Source: Thermoleophilaceae bacterium (lineage in GTDB: Bacteria; Actinomycetota; Thermoleophilia; Solirubrobacterales; Thermoleophilaceae). From it: DNA of 12,883 nucleotides. Below the pieces are notes generated by a model that worked only from the letters and a program-made list of their open reading frames with translations, made no database searches and had not been told where the DNA came from. The translations under genes were made by a program, and so were the position numbers. Location of the stretch: contig JACCZP010000066.1 in NCBI GenBank assembly GCA_013695885.1, forward strand, positions 1 to 12,883. Direction: 5' to 3'. This document shows positions 1,220 through 12,851 of the stretch, one piece after another; within the stretch, counting starts at the first letter, position 1; the number at the start of each line of letters is the position of its first letter.

Positions 1220-1666
1220 CTAGACGTCGAGCGAGTAGTCGATCCACTCCTCGCGGCGCGCCCCGACCCGTTCGTAGAGCGCTTGGGCGCGATCGTTGTC
1301 GGGGGCGGTCTGCCACTCGAGTGCCCTGGCTCCGTGCTCTCGGCAGAGCCCGCGACTCGCGTCGATCAAGGCCGCTCCGACTCCTGCCCCCCGCGCCTCG
1401 GGCACGACGAAGAGATCGTTCATGATGCCCACGCGATGCGCGCTCAGGGTGCTCCAGCTCCAGAAGACCGTTGCGAAGCCCACGGGAGACCGCCGGCCGC
1501 CGCGGGCGATGAGCTGGGCCCCTGCCTGCTCGGGGTCGGCGATCAGCGCCCTCGAGAGCGCCTCGAGGGCCTCGCGTCGGGGCCGCACCCCATAGAACCC
1601 GCAGTAGTCCGACACCAGGGGGAGGAGGTCCGCGAGGTCCTCTACGGTCACCGTCGCGATCGTCAC
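1220..1666 (-). CDS. GNAT-family N-acetyltransferase
   Basis: The 148-residue product has the GNAT fold signature, so it should transfer an acyl group from acetyl-CoA to an amine; the substrate cannot be read from sequence. Motif A is clear at residues 85-100 (LFVVPEARGAGVGAAL), containing the R-x-x-G-x-G/A pyrophosphate-binding loop. It is preceded by the strand VGIMNDL and followed by a C-terminal LEWQTAPDNDRAQALYERVGA typical of motif B (residues 116-136). The start is GTG at 1666, fixed by an in-frame TAG 12 nt upstream. No Shine-Dalgarno is visible, and that TAG is part of a TAGGCT hexamer 6 nt before the GTG. The gene lies against the direction of its neighbours, facing maf and diverging from mreB. 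Confidence 0.85.
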   Translation of the reverse strand: MTIATVTVEDLADLLPLVSDYCGFYGVRPRREALEALSRALIADPEQAGAQLIARGGRRSPVGFATVFWSWSTLSAHRVGIMNDLFVVPEARGAGVGAALIDASRGLCREHGARALEWQTAPDNDRAQALYERVGARREEWIDYSLDV

Positions 1667-1672
1667 GGAGCG

Positions 1673-1678
1673 AGCCTA
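1673..1678 (-). promoter_or_regulatory. -10-like hexamer of the GNAT gene (leaderless start)
   Basis: On the minus strand TAGGCT lies 6 nt before the GTG start and matches TAnnnT. There is no Shine-Dalgarno, so transcription may begin at the start codon. No clear -35 is visible. Confidence 0.4.
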
Positions 1679-1740
1679 CGACCGCGTGTCCCGGGACGGG
1701 AAAGCCCTGCGAGCCGCAACCTTGCCGGCCGCCTCGCGCG

Positions 1741-1770
1741 TTGTGCGCCCTGGACGGCGTCCGATACACT
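1741..1770 (+). promoter_or_regulatory. Possible upstream promoter for mreB
   Basis: TTGTGC at 1741-1746 and TACACT at 1765-1770 are separated by 18 nt and resemble a housekeeping -35/-10 pair. They lie in the roughly 200-nt divergent region between GNAT and mreB and would give a leader of about 90 nt. This is a weak consensus match. Confidence 0.3.
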
Positions 1771-1852
1771 TCCCGCCGCGAGCGGGTCGCACTCCGCCAC
1801 CCCGGTGCCCCGTCTTCGATCAGCTCGCACGGCGCTTCCGGCTTCCTGCGCC

Positions 1853-2920
<1,068 letters not shown>

Positions 2921-2930
2921 GCTCCGGCGC

Positions 2931-2935
2931 GGAGG
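2931..2935 (+). promoter_or_regulatory. Ribosome binding site of mreC
   Basis: GGAGG lies 9 nt before the GTG at 2945 and supports that non-ATG start. Confidence 0.75.
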
Positions 2936-2944
2936 TCCTTCTCC

Positions 2945-3832
2945 GTGTACGACAAGACCGCGGTCCGTAGACGTCGGGCGGTCCTCGGGGTGCTCGTCGC
3001 CTCGTCGCTCGTCCTGCTCACCTTCTTCTTCGGGGACTCCGTTCCCACCGGGCTCCGCGCCGTGCAGCGCGGGGTCCAGGTCGTGCTGAGCCCGCTCGAG
3101 TCCGGCGCCAGCCGCGCGCTCAAGCCCTTCCGCGACATGGCCGGGTGGACCGGCGACGTCTTCTATGCCAGGGGCGAGAACGAGCGCCTGCGCAGCGAGA
3201 TCGCGCGGACGAGGTCCGAGCTGGCCCGGGCCCACACCGACGCCCGCGAGCTGGCGGCGCTCCGCGGCCTCGCCAGGCTCTCCCGGCGTGTGGGCTACCC
3301 GGGCGGCACCCAGCCGGTCACCGGACGGGTGATCGCGCGCTCGCCGACGGTCTGGTACTCGAAGGCCCAGATCAACAGCGGGTCCGACGACGGCGTCGAG
3401 GTGGGCGACCCGGTGGTGACCAGGGACGGCCTGGTCGGCCGGGTCTCCATGGTCAACGGCGGCTCCTCGGTCATCACGCTGATCACCGACGAGCAGAGCG
3501 CGGTCTCCGCCCAGGTCATGCCCGGGGGATCCGGCGGTGTGGTCAAGCCCGAGGTGGGCAAGCCGAACGACCTGCTGCTCGACTACATCGAGCGCGGCCG
3601 GAAGGTGCGCCGCGGGACGATGGTGCTCACCTCGGGTACCGCCTCCTCCAAGCTCGAGTCGCTGTTCCCGCGCGGGATCCCGATCGGTCGCGTGCGCCAG
3701 GTGGACCCGGCCGAGTTCGAGCTCTACCAGCGGGTGCACATCGAGCCCTTCGCGGACATCCGGCGCCTCGACTTCGTGCAGGTGCTCACCGACGGTCCCG
3801 AGGCCGAGGAGGAGGAGGTCTCCTTCCGATGA
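2945..3832 (+). CDS. mreC: Rod shape-determining protein MreC
   Basis: MreC is a bitopic membrane protein whose periplasm-side domain binds and activates PBP2 in the elongasome. The 295-residue product has a short basic cytoplasmic N-terminus (VRRRRAV), one transmembrane helix at about residues 12-29, a coiled coil at about 75-110 (GENERLRSEIARTRSEL onward), and then the paired beta domains typical of MreC. Visible family motifs are VTGRVIARSP, NSGSDDGVEVGDPVV and DGLVGRVSMV (about residues 125-180), with a later FPRGIPIGRV (about 240-250). The start is GTG with a strong ribosome binding site, 24 nt after the mreB stop. The C-terminus is acidic (EAEEEEV). The last codons overlap mreD by 4 bases. 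Confidence 0.95.
   Translation: MYDKTAVRRRRAVLGVLVASSLVLLTFFFGDSVPTGLRAVQRGVQVVLSPLESGASRALKPFRDMAGWTGDVFYARGENERLRSEIARTRSELARAHTDARELAALRGLARLSRRVGYPGGTQPVTGRVIARSPTVWYSKAQINSGSDDGVEVGDPVVTRDGLVGRVSMVNGGSSVITLITDEQSAVSAQVMPGGSGGVVKPEVGKPNDLLLDYIERGRKVRRGTMVLTSGTASSKLESLFPRGIPIGRVRQVDPAEFELYQRVHIEPFADIRRLDFVQVLTDGPEAEEEEVSFR
3808..3818 (+). promoter_or_regulatory. Ribosome binding site of mreD
   Basis: A triple GGAGGAGGAGG inside the end of mreC ends 10 nt before the mreD ATG. Here the Glu-rich MreC tail also encodes the ribosome binding site of the next gene. Confidence 0.7.
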
Positions 3833-4404
3833 TCGCCTCCGGTGGCGCGGTCGCGCGCGTGGCGGCCCTCGTGCTCGTGGGCTGCATCCTCCAGATCTCC
3901 TGGCTGGCCGCCGTGCGGATATTCGGCGCCACGCCCGACCTCATCCCGCTGCTCGTCGGCGCGGTGGCGCTCTACGCGGGCGCGGTCTCGGCCGCCACCA
4001 CCGGCTTCTTCTGCGGCCTGGTCATCGACCTCGTGCTGGCCACCACCCCGGGCGCCTCGTCGCTCGTGCTCACGCTCGTGGGCTACGGCCTCGGCCGCTA
4101 CCGCGACCTGCGCGACCCCGGGCACGGTCTGGTGCCCATCCCGATCGCGGCGGTGGCCACGGCGGCCTACGGCATCGGCCTCGCGCTCGTTTCGTTCCTG
4201 CTCGACCGCACGTCGATCAGCGGGCTGGCATTCCAGGAGGTGCTCCTCACCGTGGTGCTGAACGCGGTGGTAGCTCTTCCGGTGTTCGCCCTCGTGCGCA
4301 GGGTCCTGGGCCCGGTCCTCACCGTCGACCCGAGCGAACCCCGCCGCCGCCGGCGCACGGTGCGCGAGAAGGGGCCGATCGGCCTCAGGGGCCTGGAGGT
4401 CTAG
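3829..4404 (+). CDS. mreD: Rod shape-determining membrane protein MreD
   Basis: MreD is a small polytopic membrane protein of the elongasome that associates with MreC and PBP2. The start is fixed by the ATGA overlap with the mreC stop (3829-3832) and by the ribosome binding site, giving 191 residues. About six hydrophobic segments can be read (roughly 10-30, 37-52, 55-72, 76-90, 101-126 and 137-158). The family-typical segment GFFCGLVIDLVL (59-70), containing G-x-x-x-D, lies in the third. The C-terminus is basic (RRRRRTVREK) and probably cytoplasmic. Primary conservation in this family is low, so the call rests on topology, length and position between mreC and mrdA. Confidence 0.92.
   Translation: MIASGGAVARVAALVLVGCILQISWLAAVRIFGATPDLIPLLVGAVALYAGAVSAATTGFFCGLVIDLVLATTPGASSLVLTLVGYGLGRYRDLRDPGHGLVPIPIAAVATAAYGIGLALVSFLLDRTSISGLAFQEVLLTVVLNAVVALPVFALVRRVLGPVLTVDPSEPRRRRRTVREKGPIGLRGLEV
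4395..4399 (+). promoter_or_regulatory. Ribosome binding site of mrdA
   Basis: GGAGG within the last codons of mreD lies 7 nt before the ATG at 4407. This fixes the PBP2 start although the reading frame is open far upstream. Confidence 0.75.
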
Positions 4405-4406
4405 GG

Positions 4407-6284
4407 ATGTACCGCGAGGTCGAGCGACGCCCCGCGCTCTCCCCCCAGCTCGCCCTCCGGGTCGCGGTGATCGGGGGTATCGCGCTCGTGGCTTTCGGGA
4501 TCGTCTTCTTCCGGCTCTGGTACCTCCAGGTGCTGAGCGGCGACCAGTACGTGGCCGCGGCGAACGACAACCGGGTCCGCGAGATCAAGGTCGCGGCTCC
4601 GCGCGGCGAGGTCGTGGACCGCGAGGGCCGGGTGCTCGTGGACAACCGCACGGGTCTGGCCGTGAAGATCCGCCCTGACCGCCTGCCCGAGGCCGAGGCG
4701 GCGAAGACGCGCCTCTACGACCGCCTGGCCGACGTCCTGCCCGGCCTCTCGCGCACCGAGATCCGCACCCGCGTACGTGAGCAGCTCAGGGCGCAGCCCT
4801 TCTCGTCGGCCACCGTGAAGCAGGACGTGCGCCTCCCGGTCGTCCAGTACATCCTCGAGCACCAGCGGCGCTTCCGCGGCGTAGAGGTGGAGCGGGTCTT
4901 CCTGCGCTCCTACCCCCGCCGGCAGGTGGGCGCCCACCTGTTCGGGACGGTCGGCGAGGTGACGAAGGAGCAGCTCGAGGAGGACGAGCGCTACCGGGGC
5001 GTGTCGCTCGGCGACCGCGTGGGGCAGTCGGGCGTCGAGTACGCCTACGACCGCTTCCTGCGCGGCAAGAACGGCACCACCCGCGTGCAGGTGGACGCTC
5101 TCGGCACGCTCAAGGGTCGTTTCCCTCCTCAGGAACCGGTCCAGGGCCGTCAGCTGCGCCTGAGCGTGGACTACGAGGTGCAGCGCACCGCCCAGATGGC
5201 CCTGGGCAGCGCGCAGGGTGCCTTCGTGGTCATGGACGTCCGCAACGGGGAGGTGCGTGCGCTCGGATCCTCCCCGTCGTTCGACCCCAACCAGTTCGCC
5301 AAGGTCATCAAGCCGTCGGACTTCAAGCGCCTCTCCTCCGAGGAGAACGGGGCGCCGCTCTCCAACCGGGCGATCCAGGGCCTCTATCCCACGGGGTCCA
5401 CCTTCAAGCTGATCACCGCCGTCGCGGGCCTCGAGGGCGGGCTCATCTCGCCCGGTGAGGCGGTCTACGACGGCGGGTCGCTCCAGGTGGGAGGGGTGAC
5501 CTTCAAGAACGCCGGCGGGGTCGTCAACGGGCCGGTGGCGCTGCGGCGCGCGCTCTCGGTCTCGAGCGACGTGTTCTTCTACCGCCTCGGGCTCGAGGCC
5601 AACAACGCCGGCAACGGCAAGCTGATCCAGGACTGGGCCAAGCGGCTCGGAGTGGGGCGCAAGACCGGGATCGACCTGCCGGCGGAGGCCGAGGGGCTGA
5701 TCCCCACACCGGAGTGGCGCAACCGCCTGTTCCGCAAGAAGCTCACCGACCGTCCGTGGTCGGCCGGCGACAACATCAACCTCTCGGTCGGTCAGGGCGA
5801 CGTGCAGGCCAACCCCCTCCAGATGGCCGTGGCCTACGCGGCGATCGCCAACGGCGGCTACGTGGTGCGCCCCCATCTCGGCCTTCGCATCGAGGACGCC
5901 GACGGCCGGGTCATGCAGGAGCTCGAGACCAAGGCGCGCCGGAAGGTGAAGGTGGCCCCCGAATACCGCCGGGCCATCCTCGACGGTCTGCGCATGGCCG
6001 CCAGCGCGCCGGGTGGCACCTCAGCCGACGTGTTCAAGAAGTTCCCCATACCCGTGGCCGGCAAGACCGGCACCGCGGAGAAGGGGGCCGGGCGCGCCGA
6101 CCAGTCCTGGTACCTCGCGCTCGCGCCCTATCCGAACCCCCGCTACGTGGTGGCGGTGACCTTCGAGGCCGGAGGGTTCGGTGCCGAGACCGCCGCCCCG
6201 GCCGCCCGCCGCATCCTCGCCTCCCTGTTCGACGTGAAGGGCGAGGAGAAGAAGGTCGTCAAGGGCTCGAGTAGGACCAACTAG
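4407..6284 (+). CDS. mrdA: Penicillin-binding protein 2 (elongation D,D-transpeptidase)
   Basis: This class B PBP cross-links peptidoglycan during side-wall elongation together with RodA. The 625-residue product has an N-terminal membrane anchor at about residues 16-38. The pedestal domain contains the class B motif APRGEVVDREG (64-74) and QSGVEYAYDRFLRG (207-220). The C-terminal transpeptidase domain carries STFK with nucleophile Ser331, SSD (386-388, the SxD version usual in PBP2 rather than SxN) and KTGT (553-556). All catalytic motifs are intact. It begins 2 nt after the mreD stop. The tail after about residue 608 is Lys/Ser-rich and probably disordered. Confidence 0.96.
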   Translation: MYREVERRPALSPQLALRVAVIGGIALVAFGIVFFRLWYLQVLSGDQYVAAANDNRVREIKVAAPRGEVVDREGRVLVDNRTGLAVKIRPDRLPEAEAAKTRLYDRLADVLPGLSRTEIRTRVREQLRAQPFSSATVKQDVRLPVVQYILEHQRRFRGVEVERVFLRSYPRRQVGAHLFGTVGEVTKEQLEEDERYRGVSLGDRVGQSGVEYAYDRFLRGKNGTTRVQVDALGTLKGRFPPQEPVQGRQLRLSVDYEVQRTAQMALGSAQGAFVVMDVRNGEVRALGSSPSFDPNQFAKVIKPSDFKRLSSEENGAPLSNRAIQGLYPTGSTFKLITAVAGLEGGLISPGEAVYDGGSLQVGGVTFKNAGGVVNGPVALRRALSVSSDVFFYRLGLEANNAGNGKLIQDWAKRLGVGRKTGIDLPAEAEGLIPTPEWRNRLFRKKLTDRPWSAGDNINLSVGQGDVQANPLQMAVAYAAIANGGYVVRPHLGLRIEDADGRVMQELETKARRKVKVAPEYRRAILDGLRMAASAPGGTSADVFKKFPIPVAGKTGTAEKGAGRADQSWYLALAPYPNPRYVVAVTFEAGGFGAETAAPAARRILASLFDVKGEEKKVVKGSSRTN

Positions 6285-9665: not shown

Positions 9666-10664
9666 ATGCCGGACGAGATGACACTTAGGTCGGATATCCG
9701 GCCCAAACTTGCCGGTGTCGATCTCGAGCGGGCGATCGTCCGCCTCGCCGAGCGCCAGCACGGCGTCATCGCCCGGGGGCAACTGCTCGCGCTCGGCCTG
9801 GGCGCGAGCACGGTGAAGCACCGCGTCGGACACGGCCGGCTCCACCCGATGCACCGCGGCGTCTACGCCCTCGGCCACCGGCGCCTCTCCGTTCACGGTC
9901 GGTTCATGGCCGCGGTGCTCGCCGCGGGTCCCGGCGCCGTGCTCAGCCATCGCTCCGCGGCCGAGCTGTGGGGGATACGCGCCTCGGCGAGCCAACGGGT
10001 CGAGGTCAGCGCCCCGACGCGGCGCCGCGCGGGACGGGGCGTCCGAGCTCACCTCGCCTCTCTCGCGAACGACGAGCTCACCGAGCTCGAGGAGATCCCC
10101 GTGACCACAGCCTCCCGCACACTGCTCGACCTCGCCGCCGTGCTCGACGGTCAGCGCCTCGAACGCGCTCTCCGCGAGGCCGAGTTCCGCCGGCTCGGGG
10201 ACGCGACGTCGCTCACCGTGCTCCTCGAGCGCCATCCCCGCCGCCGCGGCACCGCTCTCCTGCGCCGGATCCTCGCCGCCGGGCGCCTCGGCGACGGCGT
10301 CACCCGCGGCGAGCTCGAGGATTGCTTCGTCGCCTTCCTCGACGCCGCGGGCCTGCCGCGGCCGGGGCTCAACCGCCACATCGAGGCCGCCGGTCGCCTT
10401 ATCGAGTGCGACTCCGTCTGGCGGGACGGGCGGCTGATCGTCGAGCTCGACGGCCACGCGACTCACGGCCGGCGCAGCGCCTTCGAGGACGACCGCGCCC
10501 GGGACCGGGCCTTGAGCGCCGCCGGATGGCGGGTGGTGCGCGTCACCTGGCGCCAGCTCGAGCGGGAGGCTGGGCCGCTGGAGAGCGATCTCCGGCGGCT
10601 GCTCGGGGAAGGCGAAGCGAAAGCGACCATCGGGGCGCGGCGGGGAGGAGATTCGACCCCCTAG
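9666..10664 (+). CDS. AbiEi-like N-terminal and DUF559 C-terminal domain protein
   Basis: The 332-residue product combines two recognisable parts. Residues about 18-70 (RLAERQHGVIARGQLLALGL and HRGVYALGH) match the winged-helix N-terminal domain of AbiEi-type antitoxin proteins. Residues about 214-312 resemble DUF559, a Vsr/PD-(D/E)xK-like nuclease fold: Glu216 in RGELED, Asp249 in ECDSVW, ELDGHATH (260-267), EDDRARD (274-280) and GWRVVRVTW (287-295). Putative acidic active-site residues are therefore present. Biochemical function is not established for this architecture, and many copies occur in actinobacterial genomes. No AbiEii-type nucleotidyltransferase toxin is adjacent, so a toxin-antitoxin role is not supported here. 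The start is ATG 9666 or ATG 9678; GGGAG at 9661-9665 fits the second better. Confidence 0.8.
   Translation: MPDEMTLRSDIRPKLAGVDLERAIVRLAERQHGVIARGQLLALGLGASTVKHRVGHGRLHPMHRGVYALGHRRLSVHGRFMAAVLAAGPGAVLSHRSAAELWGIRASASQRVEVSAPTRRRAGRGVRAHLASLANDELTELEEIPVTTASRTLLDLAAVLDGQRLERALREAEFRRLGDATSLTVLLERHPRRRGTALLRRILAAGRLGDGVTRGELEDCFVAFLDAAGLPRPGLNRHIEAAGRLIECDSVWRDGRLIVELDGHATHGRRSAFEDDRARDRALSAAGWRVVRVTWRQLEREAGPLESDLRRLLGEGEAKATIGARRGGDSTP
9680..9719 (+). repeat. Nested inverted repeats at the start of the DUF559 gene
   Basis: Within the first codons lie a perfect palindrome CGGATATCCG (9691-9700), a hairpin CCGGC/GCCGG with an 8-nt loop (9698-9702 and 9711-9715), and outer arms GACAC/GTGTC (9680-9684 and 9715-9719). 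The stretch is more AT-rich than its surroundings. It could be an operator or RNA structure near the ribosome binding site; its role is unknown. Confidence 0.4.
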
Positions 10665-10674: not shown

Positions 10675-11751
10675 GTGAGCGCGAGGCGCATCGGGGGACT
10701 CGTTCGGCTCCTGCTCGCCGGCCTCGTCCTCGCGCGGCTGTCGCGGGGCCGGCGGCGCCGGGCGCCGCTCGCCGGCCGGAGCGGTCCGCTCGACGCGGTC
10801 AGCGTGGTCGTTCCCGCTCGGAACGAGGCGCATCGGATCGGGCCGTGCCTCGAGGAGCTGGTCGCCGATCCGGGGGTGGCCGAGATCGTGGTCCTCGACG
10901 ACCGCTCGGAGGACGGCACCGCCGAGCTGGCCGCCTCGCTCGGGGCTCGCGTCGTGGCCGGGACGCCACTCCCGGACGGCTGGGTCGGAAAGCAGTGGGC
11001 TCTCCAGCAGGGCATCGAGGCGGCTGGGTCGGACGTCGTCGTGCTGCTCGACGCCGACACGCGCGTGCGCCGCGGACTGGTGGGGGCGGTCCTCGAGGAG
11101 CTGCGCGACGCGGACCTGGTGAGCGTCGCGCCGCGGTTCGTGTGCCGGGATGCCCTGCTGCGCTGGCTGCATCCCTCGATGCTCGCCACGCTCACCTATC
11201 GCTTCGGGCCGCTGGGTGCGGAGGGGGAGGCTCCGGCGCCTCGCCGCGCGATCGGGAACGGCCAGTGCCTGGGTGCACGCCGCGAAGCGCTGCTGTCCTC
11301 CGACGTCCTCCGACGGACCCGAGCCCACATGACCGACGACATCGCGCTGGTGCGCGCGCTGGCTGCGGACGGCTGGCGGGTGTCGTTCGTCGACGGCGCC
11401 GATCTGCTGTCGGTGGAGATGTACGCGAGCGCCGCCGAGGCGTGGCGGGAATGGCCGCGCACGCTGGCCATGGCCGACGTGACGAGCCCGGCGTGGAAGG
11501 CCCTCGACTCGGCGGTCATGGTCCTCGTGATGGCCGTGCCGGTGCTGCGCCTGGCCTCCGGCCGCGCCGGGCACCTGGACCGGGCTCTGCTCGTGGTGCG
11601 GGTCGCGCTGCTGGGGGCTCTGGGGCGCTTCTACGAACGCCGCGGCCTGCCCTTCTGGCTGTCTCCGCTGGCGGATCCGGTGGCCGTGGGGCGGCTCGTG
11701 TACGCCACGCTGCGGCCGGTGAGGGCCTGGCGCGGGCGCAGCTACGGGTGA
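10675..11751 (+). CDS. Membrane-anchored family 2 glycosyltransferase
   Basis: The 358-residue protein has the GT-A fold of family 2 glycosyltransferases: VSVVVPARNEAHRIG (42-56), VVLDDRSEDGTA (72-83), the nucleotide-sugar metal site LLDADTR with DAD at 126-128, and a later acceptor-side acidic motif MTDDIAL (219-225). The segment LPDGWVGKQWALQQG (99-113) is typical of the subgroup that includes hopene-associated HpnB and carotenoid glycosyltransferases CrtQ/CruC, so a lipid or isoprenoid acceptor is plausible but unproven. A weak hydrophobic segment lies at 8-22, and two stronger membrane segments at about 279-295 and 303-317, so it is probably membrane bound. The start is GTG, 10 nt after the DUF559 stop, without a Shine-Dalgarno. 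selD follows after 65 nt. Confidence 0.85.
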   Translation: MSARRIGGLVRLLLAGLVLARLSRGRRRRAPLAGRSGPLDAVSVVVPARNEAHRIGPCLEELVADPGVAEIVVLDDRSEDGTAELAASLGARVVAGTPLPDGWVGKQWALQQGIEAAGSDVVVLLDADTRVRRGLVGAVLEELRDADLVSVAPRFVCRDALLRWLHPSMLATLTYRFGPLGAEGEAPAPRRAIGNGQCLGARREALLSSDVLRRTRAHMTDDIALVRALAADGWRVSFVDGADLLSVEMYASAAEAWREWPRTLAMADVTSPAWKALDSAVMVLVMAVPVLRLASGRAGHLDRALLVVRVALLGALGRFYERRGLPFWLSPLADPVAVGRLVYATLRPVRAWRGRSYG

Positions 11752-11816: not shown

Positions 11817-12851
11817 GTGGACGAAAAGACCCGCATAAGGCTGACGAAGTACTCGCAGAAGGCCGGGTGAGCGTCGAAGTTCGCTCCAGGGGACCTGGAG
11901 CAGGTGCTCGAGGGCTTCGGCCCGGCCGAGGCTGAAGGCTTCGCCAGCGGAATCGAGACCCGCGACGACGCGGGACACATCCCCTTCGCGGGAGGACTGC
12001 TCCTGCAGTCGGTCGACTTCTTCACGCCCATCGTCGACGATCCGCGCCGCTTCGGGCAGATCGCGGCCGCGAACGCGTTCTCGGACGTGTACGCGATGGG
12101 TGGGCAGGCGCTCACCGCGCTCAATCTCGTGGCGTGGCCGTGCTCGCTCGACCTGGCCGCGCTGCGCGAGGTGCTCGAGGGGGGCCTCGAGAAGGTCGAG
12201 GAGGCGGGCGCCAGCCTGCTCGGAGGCCACTCGGTGCAGGACGACGAGCCGAAGTACGGGCTGGCCGTCACGGGTTGGGTGGAGACCGACCGCGTGGTGC
12301 GCAACGCGGGCGCGCGGCCCGGCGACCGCCTCGTCCTGACCAAGCCCCTGGGACTCGGCATCCTCGCTACGGCGCTGAAGCGCGACCTTGTGACCGAGGC
12401 CGACGTCGAGGAGGCGGTCGAGACCGCCGCGCGCCTTAACCGCGGCGCCTCCGAGGCCATGCGTGCGGTGGGGGTGTCCGCCGCCACCGACGTGACCGGC
12501 TATGGCCTGCTCGGCCACCTCGGCGAGATGCTGGCCGCGAGCGGGGTCGGGGCCGTGGTCCGCCGCAGCGCCGCGCCGGTTTGGGACGGAGCGTCCGGCC
12601 TCGCCGCCGAGGGCTGCTACCCGGGCGGCCTGGACGCCAACCGCGACCACGTCCTCGACCGGGTCTTGCGTGACGGCGTGTCCGAGGAGGACCTCCTGCC
12701 CCTCTACGACCCGCAGACGAGCGGCGGGCTGCTCATCGCGGTGGCCGAGGAGCGGGCGGAAGACCTCGTGGCGGAGCTGAAGGTCCGCGGCGAGCGTGCC
12801 GACGTGGTGGGCGAGATCGTGGCCGGTACGGGAATGCGCGTGGTCCGGTAG
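11817..12851 (+). CDS. selD: Selenophosphate synthetase with in-frame UGA (selenocysteine)
   Basis: SelD uses ATP and selenide to make selenophosphate, the selenium donor for selenocysteine and 2-selenouridine. From the GTG at 11817 the product is 344 residues, matching the usual length of about 345. The N-terminus reads IRLTKYSQKAG, then UGA at 11868-11870 (residue 18), then ASKFAPGDLE. In SelD this position is the catalytic Cys or Sec, followed three residues later by the essential Lys (Lys21 here). The rest is intact: ETRDDA (47-52), VDFFTPIVDD (66-75), AAANAFSDVYAMGG, LLGGHS, GLAVTG, LTKPLG, TDVTGYGLLGHL and PQTSGGLL. A start at 11904 (GTG, codon 30) would lose the active site. The UGA must be read as selenocysteine for a working enzyme; a base-call error in a Cys codon (TGT/TGC) is the alternative. 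Confidence 0.93.
11883..11901 (+). promoter_or_regulatory. SECIS-like hairpin downstream of the selD UGA
   Basis: GCTCCAGG (11883-11890) and CCTGGAGC (11894-11901) form a perfect 8-bp stem closing a GGA loop. The loop begins 20 nt after the UGA, within the range expected for bacterial SECIS elements, and its leading GG fits the G-rich apical loop recognised by SelB. A further outer pairing GAGC/GCTC (11869-11872 with 11906-11909) may extend it from the UGA itself. The bulged U of the E. coli fdhF element is not evident. Confidence 0.65.

Follow-up and report, generated by a model that had tools for sequence, protein, structure and literature searches.

Bacterial selenophosphate synthetases (SelD) that carry selenocysteine (Sec) in place of the catalytic cysteine are already in print, Rubrobacter included, and the gene described here is ordinary for its kind. 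Rubrobacter xylanophilus is entered with five selenoproteins and SelD in Table 4 of PMC1794560, and it carries tRNA-Sec according to the accessible part of PMC5330540. As far as the available text of PMC1794560 goes, Sec-to-Cys changes of SelD are reported and Cys-to-Sec changes are not. A conversion from Cys to Sec is argued for the Sec-SelD of Pasteurellales (Haemophilus) in the accessible sections of PMC4561486. Among the papers listed for Thermoleophilia and selenium (20, of 285 and of 157), no title or abstract opening dealt with Sec-SelD of this class, from which we do not claim absence from print.

The DNA analyzed here (the window) is the whole stretch of 12,883 nucleotides of contig JACCZP010000066.1 from a Thermoleophilaceae bacterium. 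Its selD resembles that of Rubrobacter in having a TGA-encoded Sec, and the copies in metagenome-assembled genomes (MAGs) of this type are 68-71% identical to it; unlike Rubrobacter, the window genome is Thermoleophilaceae-like and its selD follows an ndk-maf-mreBC-mrdA-rodA-rng block. In the Rubrobacter-type loci L014 and L018, selD is followed by what reads as a membrane-protein-like frame. The Sec of the Pasteurellales enzymes occupies the same SelD position as in the window, but a Cys-to-Sec change is argued there, whereas the tree of the window gene favours Sec as the older state. The window selD opens no new kind of biology. The relevant features of the window are as follows.

10675 to 11751, plus strand: glycosyltransferase family 2 frame, the upstream neighbour of selD, with an ordinary TGA stop at 11749-11751
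11817 to 12851, plus strand: selD, predicted to contain Sec; 344 residues including U18, from a GTG start to a TAG stop at 12849-12851
11868 to 11870, plus strand: in-frame TGA, read as selenocysteine (residue 18)
11883 to 11901, plus strand: bacterial SECIS-like hairpin, with an 8-bp stem (11883-11890 with 11894-11901) and a GGA loop (11891-11893)
11904 to 11906, plus strand: GTG at which the standard open reading frame (ORF) call begins, with residues 1-29 lost

With TGA translated as U, positions 11817-12848 form one 344-residue SelD frame that contains exactly one TGA. The TIGR00476 selD profile covers residues 8-313 of this frame and scores 350.6 bits (cut-off 125), and thus SelD homology spans the TGA; the AIRS and AIRS_C domains (AIR synthase related) are both present. 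The original prediction had put the TGA at the catalytic Cys/Sec site, with the signature RLTKYSQKAG before it and the Lys at +3 and all later motifs after it in the same frame. Both parts hold: the signature covers residues 8-17 and the Lys is residue 21, and in alignments U18 and K21 stand opposite the Cys and Lys of the solved SelD chains 3u0o and 2yye, which we take to come from E. coli and Aquifex. In SelD the Cys or Sec is catalytic and lies, together with the Lys at +3, in a glycine-rich N-terminus. The GTG start aligns with residue 1 (Met) of the Rubrobacter-type relatives. An Rfam search of the window at the gathering cut-off gave no match, and a tRNA search of the window found none. 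Positions 9666-10664, which separate the rng-like gene from the glycosyltransferase, encode a protein with an AbiEi_4 antitoxin-type N-terminus joined to a DUF559 endonuclease-like C-terminus.

It had also been foreseen that a standard call would start at 11904 and lose the first 29 residues. Such an ORF is indeed listed after the TGA under table 11 (GTG 11904, 315 aa), and the database protein P0005 is the same short product (315 aa, 99% identical, aligned from residue 30), which comprises 12 member sequences on 3 contigs. At residue 18, the 120 closest listed homologs (of 7997 scored) comprise 34 with Cys, one with Trp, and 85 that begin after this position, some of which may be fragments, as they are known as protein only. 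A genuine stop at the UGA, with translation of nothing but the 315-residue product from GTG 11904, would agree with these calls. That product, however, would be devoid of both the catalytic Cys/Sec and the Lys, conservation with SelD extends over residues 8-29, and the choice of codons just after the TGA is constrained (see below), all of which makes a genuine stop very improbable. The Sec reading corrects this annotation, whose product lacks the SelD active site.

Among the listed homologs, P0012 has Trp at the Sec site, probably because its source translated TGA as Trp. Reassignment of TGA to another amino acid in the window genome, for which this entry might speak, is nevertheless barely conceivable: TGA is also an ordinary stop in this genome, as at the end of the neighbouring glycosyltransferase, all four in-frame TGAs seen lie at known Sec sites, and a tRNA-Sec with anticodon tca is present.

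The hairpin at 11883-11901 has its loop 20 nt after the TGA and a folding energy of -13.3 kcal/mol, and it conforms to the bacterial SECIS model printed in the accessible part of PMC13188914. Only 2 of 200 shuffles of these 19 nt fold as well, a figure for a stretch chosen after it had been seen. We then compared the 45 nt from the TGA with 1000 synonymous recodings per gene and recorded the fraction of these that folded at least as well. For the six close Sec copies (the window and L014-L018) the fractions were 0.032, 0.004, 0.002, 0.008, 0.046, and 0.027, and for the four close Cys copies they were 0.919, 0.305, 0.808, and 0.601. The hairpin is thus kept through codon choice in all six Sec copies and is missing in all four Cys copies. 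In agreement with this constraint, where the six Sec copies share an amino acid they also use the same codon at seven of eight positions within residues 21-30, compared with 37 of 181 positions outside residues 19-33; a single run of eight shared-amino-acid columns out of 184 reaches seven identical codons. The invariant Ala codon here, GCT, is rare in the window selD (3 of 49 Ala codons). Weaker results were obtained when the 45-nt fold of selD was compared with dinucleotide shuffles (z -1.72, 11 of 200 as good) and when other limits of the folded segment were used (z from -0.57 to -2.90). By a simple contiguous-stem score, the published limit of -7.5 kcal/mol is reached by 5 of 14 TGA copies from the class and by none of 20 Cys copies; the nine remaining TGA copies score from -4.6 to -6.0 kcal/mol.

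The TGA itself is widespread among relatives. Among 80 homologous loci, which are the best 80 of 406 confirmed and hence not a random sample, 78 have TGA at codon 18 and the other two TGT. All five nearest loci, from Rubrobacter and other Actinomycetota MAGs (68-71% identical), have TGA. A survey of 399 genomes of the class gave a SelD match at E <= 1e-60 in 210 of them, and at least 46 rows from at least 45 genomes contain one TGA; where its position was examined (14 of the 46 rows), it falls at residue 18 every time. One of the genomes with TGA at residue 18, G387, belongs to the same order as the window genome. These observations bear on another explanation, namely an error introduced during sequencing or assembly, or a nonsense mutation that made a pseudogene of a Cys-type selD. 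Four same-family copies at 70-73% identity do have Cys. Yet the remainder of the selD frame is intact, and the window copy has the SECIS-like hairpin, which is absent from the four Cys copies. Codon 18 is TGA in relatives as well, and three more genes of the window genome have TGA at Sec sites, so that an error or pseudogene is extremely improbable.

The original prediction expected a Sec-decoding background in the same genome. The assembly (G000; 2,085,160 bases, 416 contigs, 87.15% complete) contains the following elements.

C273, 180 to 271: tRNA-Sec (selC), 67.7 bits (cut-off 47), anticodon tca
C197, TGA at 2148-2150: fdhA (formate dehydrogenase alpha) with one TGA, NF041513 1696 bits (cut-off 1400), NQARI-U-HSSTV
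C51, TGA at 2531-2533, minus strand: grdA (glycine reductase protein A) with one TGA, PF04723 192.8 bits, CFVUTASGAMD
C51, TGA at 4773-4775, minus strand: grdB (glycine reductase protein B) with one TGA, TIGR01918 390.3 bits, LTATUGTGTRCG

We take the TGA positions in FdhA, GrdA, and GrdB to be the classical Sec sites. This documents four selenoprotein genes, those of SelD, FdhA, GrdA, and GrdB, in a single Thermoleophilaceae-like genome. For GrdA no Cys homologs are known according to the accessible part of PMC1794560, and on that account GrdA alone argues for Sec decoding. Downstream of their TGA codons, the 45-nt segments of fdhA and grdB showed no fold excess over shuffles (z 0.31 and 0.58), and therefore no SECIS is claimed for these two genes.

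The expected background is thus present as regards tRNA-Sec, fdhA, grdA, grdB, and the hairpin, and searches of this assembly (87.15% complete, 416 contigs) failed to find two expected genes: selB gave no match over the cut-off, and selA was not detected by two profile searches, of which the first matched 4 of 14 control genomes (one over the cut-off) and the second was run without a control. The best match to the selB model, on contig C170 (189.5 bits, under the cut-off), is EF-Tu by reading and lies beside EF-G and ribosomal protein genes, so it was rejected as selB. In G007, a genome of the same family, selA (495 bits) overlaps selB (305 bits) within a single contig, and hence one gap could remove both. 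We take their absence from the window genome as a probable assembly gap. A tRNA-Sec of at least 55 bits (a threshold chosen here, because the family cut-off of 47 also admits other tRNAs) occurs in 27 of 61 genomes, the window genome included, and selB is over the cut-off in 22 of the 27; the other five (G000, G005, G011, G025, and G028) are assemblies of 140 to 416 contigs. In G007 and G019, selA and selB precede tRNA-Ser; contig C68 of the window genome instead opens with what reads as the tail of fdhB, followed by a membrane subunit and further genes, so this arrangement did not locate selA and selB. On contig C197, positions 1527-6007 (L148) include fdhA with its TGA, and C68 from position 1 (L136) carries the apparent end of fdhB and then the membrane subunit; the two may be neighbouring contigs.

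The frame, the position of the TGA, the codon constraint on the hairpin, tRNA-Sec, and the three additional selenoprotein genes of this genome agree in indicating that the window almost certainly contains a functional selD whose product is predicted to use Sec as its own catalytic residue. From established biology, SelA and SelB would be expected in this organism, as would actual read-through of the UGA and activity of the enzyme. SelB, loaded with Sec-tRNA-Sec, would bind the hairpin immediately downstream of the UGA and insert Sec at residue 18. The enzyme would then make selenophosphate from selenide and ATP, which SelA would use to make more Sec. As Sec depends on selenophosphate, making this SelD would require its own product.

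Within the family, Sec is not the only state of SelD. The actinobacterial lineage guessed from the sequence proved right: the SelD of the same-family genome G019 is identical over 340 residues to P0017, a protein of a Thermoleophilaceae bacterium. The SelD proteins of genus g8 (G007, G019, G025, and G029) are close to that of the window (70-73% identical over residues 3-342), but all four have Cys at residue 18, encoded by TGC or TGT, and none has the SECIS-like hairpin. G007 and G019 possess tRNA-Sec and selB all the same, in G025 tRNA-Sec is accompanied by a possible selB fragment (128.9 bits, below the cut-off), and in G029 (74% complete) neither was seen. Fifteen further SelD proteins compared from the same family or order (L099-L113), 46-52% identical to that of the window, have Cys in every case. 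One TAG was flagged in the SelD of the same-family genomes G005 and G018, and a TAG also in that of G047. For G005 and G018, UAG recoding was considered and rejected: residue 18 is encoded by TGC, and there is no stop inside the aligned part (to residue 308). Their TAG lies at the very end of the match and is presumably an ordinary stop.

A maximum-likelihood tree was built from 57 chosen SelD sequences with residue 18 masked where present. The window protein groups with two truncated homologs (support 99/94), and this group is sister to 16 Cys sequences (92/87); the branch joining the two has support 98/88, and the Rubrobacter-type Sec copies lie outside it. The topology favours one Sec-to-Cys change in the Cys sister clade as the simplest reading. 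The position of this clade, apart from the other SelD of the same order, suggests that it may have arisen by transfer or by old paralogy. A different history, in which the active site switched between Sec and Cys within one Thermoleophilaceae-like family while Sec decoding was kept, and the window gene regained Sec from Cys with a newly built SECIS, appears unlikely. Were the ancestor that the window copy shares with its Cys sister clade of the Cys type, the window would record a Cys-to-Sec regain, unlike any SelD in the 2006 survey, and among the works compared such a change is otherwise argued for Pasteurellales only. The window and genus g8 offer a natural Sec/Cys comparison for the question of why SelD keeps or drops Sec.

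Several observations concern the glycine reductase genes. In the window genome, which is actinobacterial, C51 1185-5672 (L137) is a reductase locus of the glycine/sarcosine type, in which grdA and grdB, each with TGA, are accompanied by frames similar to thioredoxin and thioredoxin reductase; GRDB was found in 9 of the 61 relatives searched. On C273 (L001 1-271), a same-strand frame directly 3' of tRNA-Sec runs off the contig edge, and judged by reading it is similar to the beginning of the frame that precedes grdB in G007 (L144 from 2029); because of this resemblance, selC appears to adjoin the grd genes. A short segment containing the Sec codon is absent from the grdB gene of G007 (L144 4440-4760, on G007:C19), through either a deletion or an assembly fault. 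In the grdB genes of G019 and of the window genome (L137 4380-4860, minus strand, on C51), compared together with L143, the TGA is kept.
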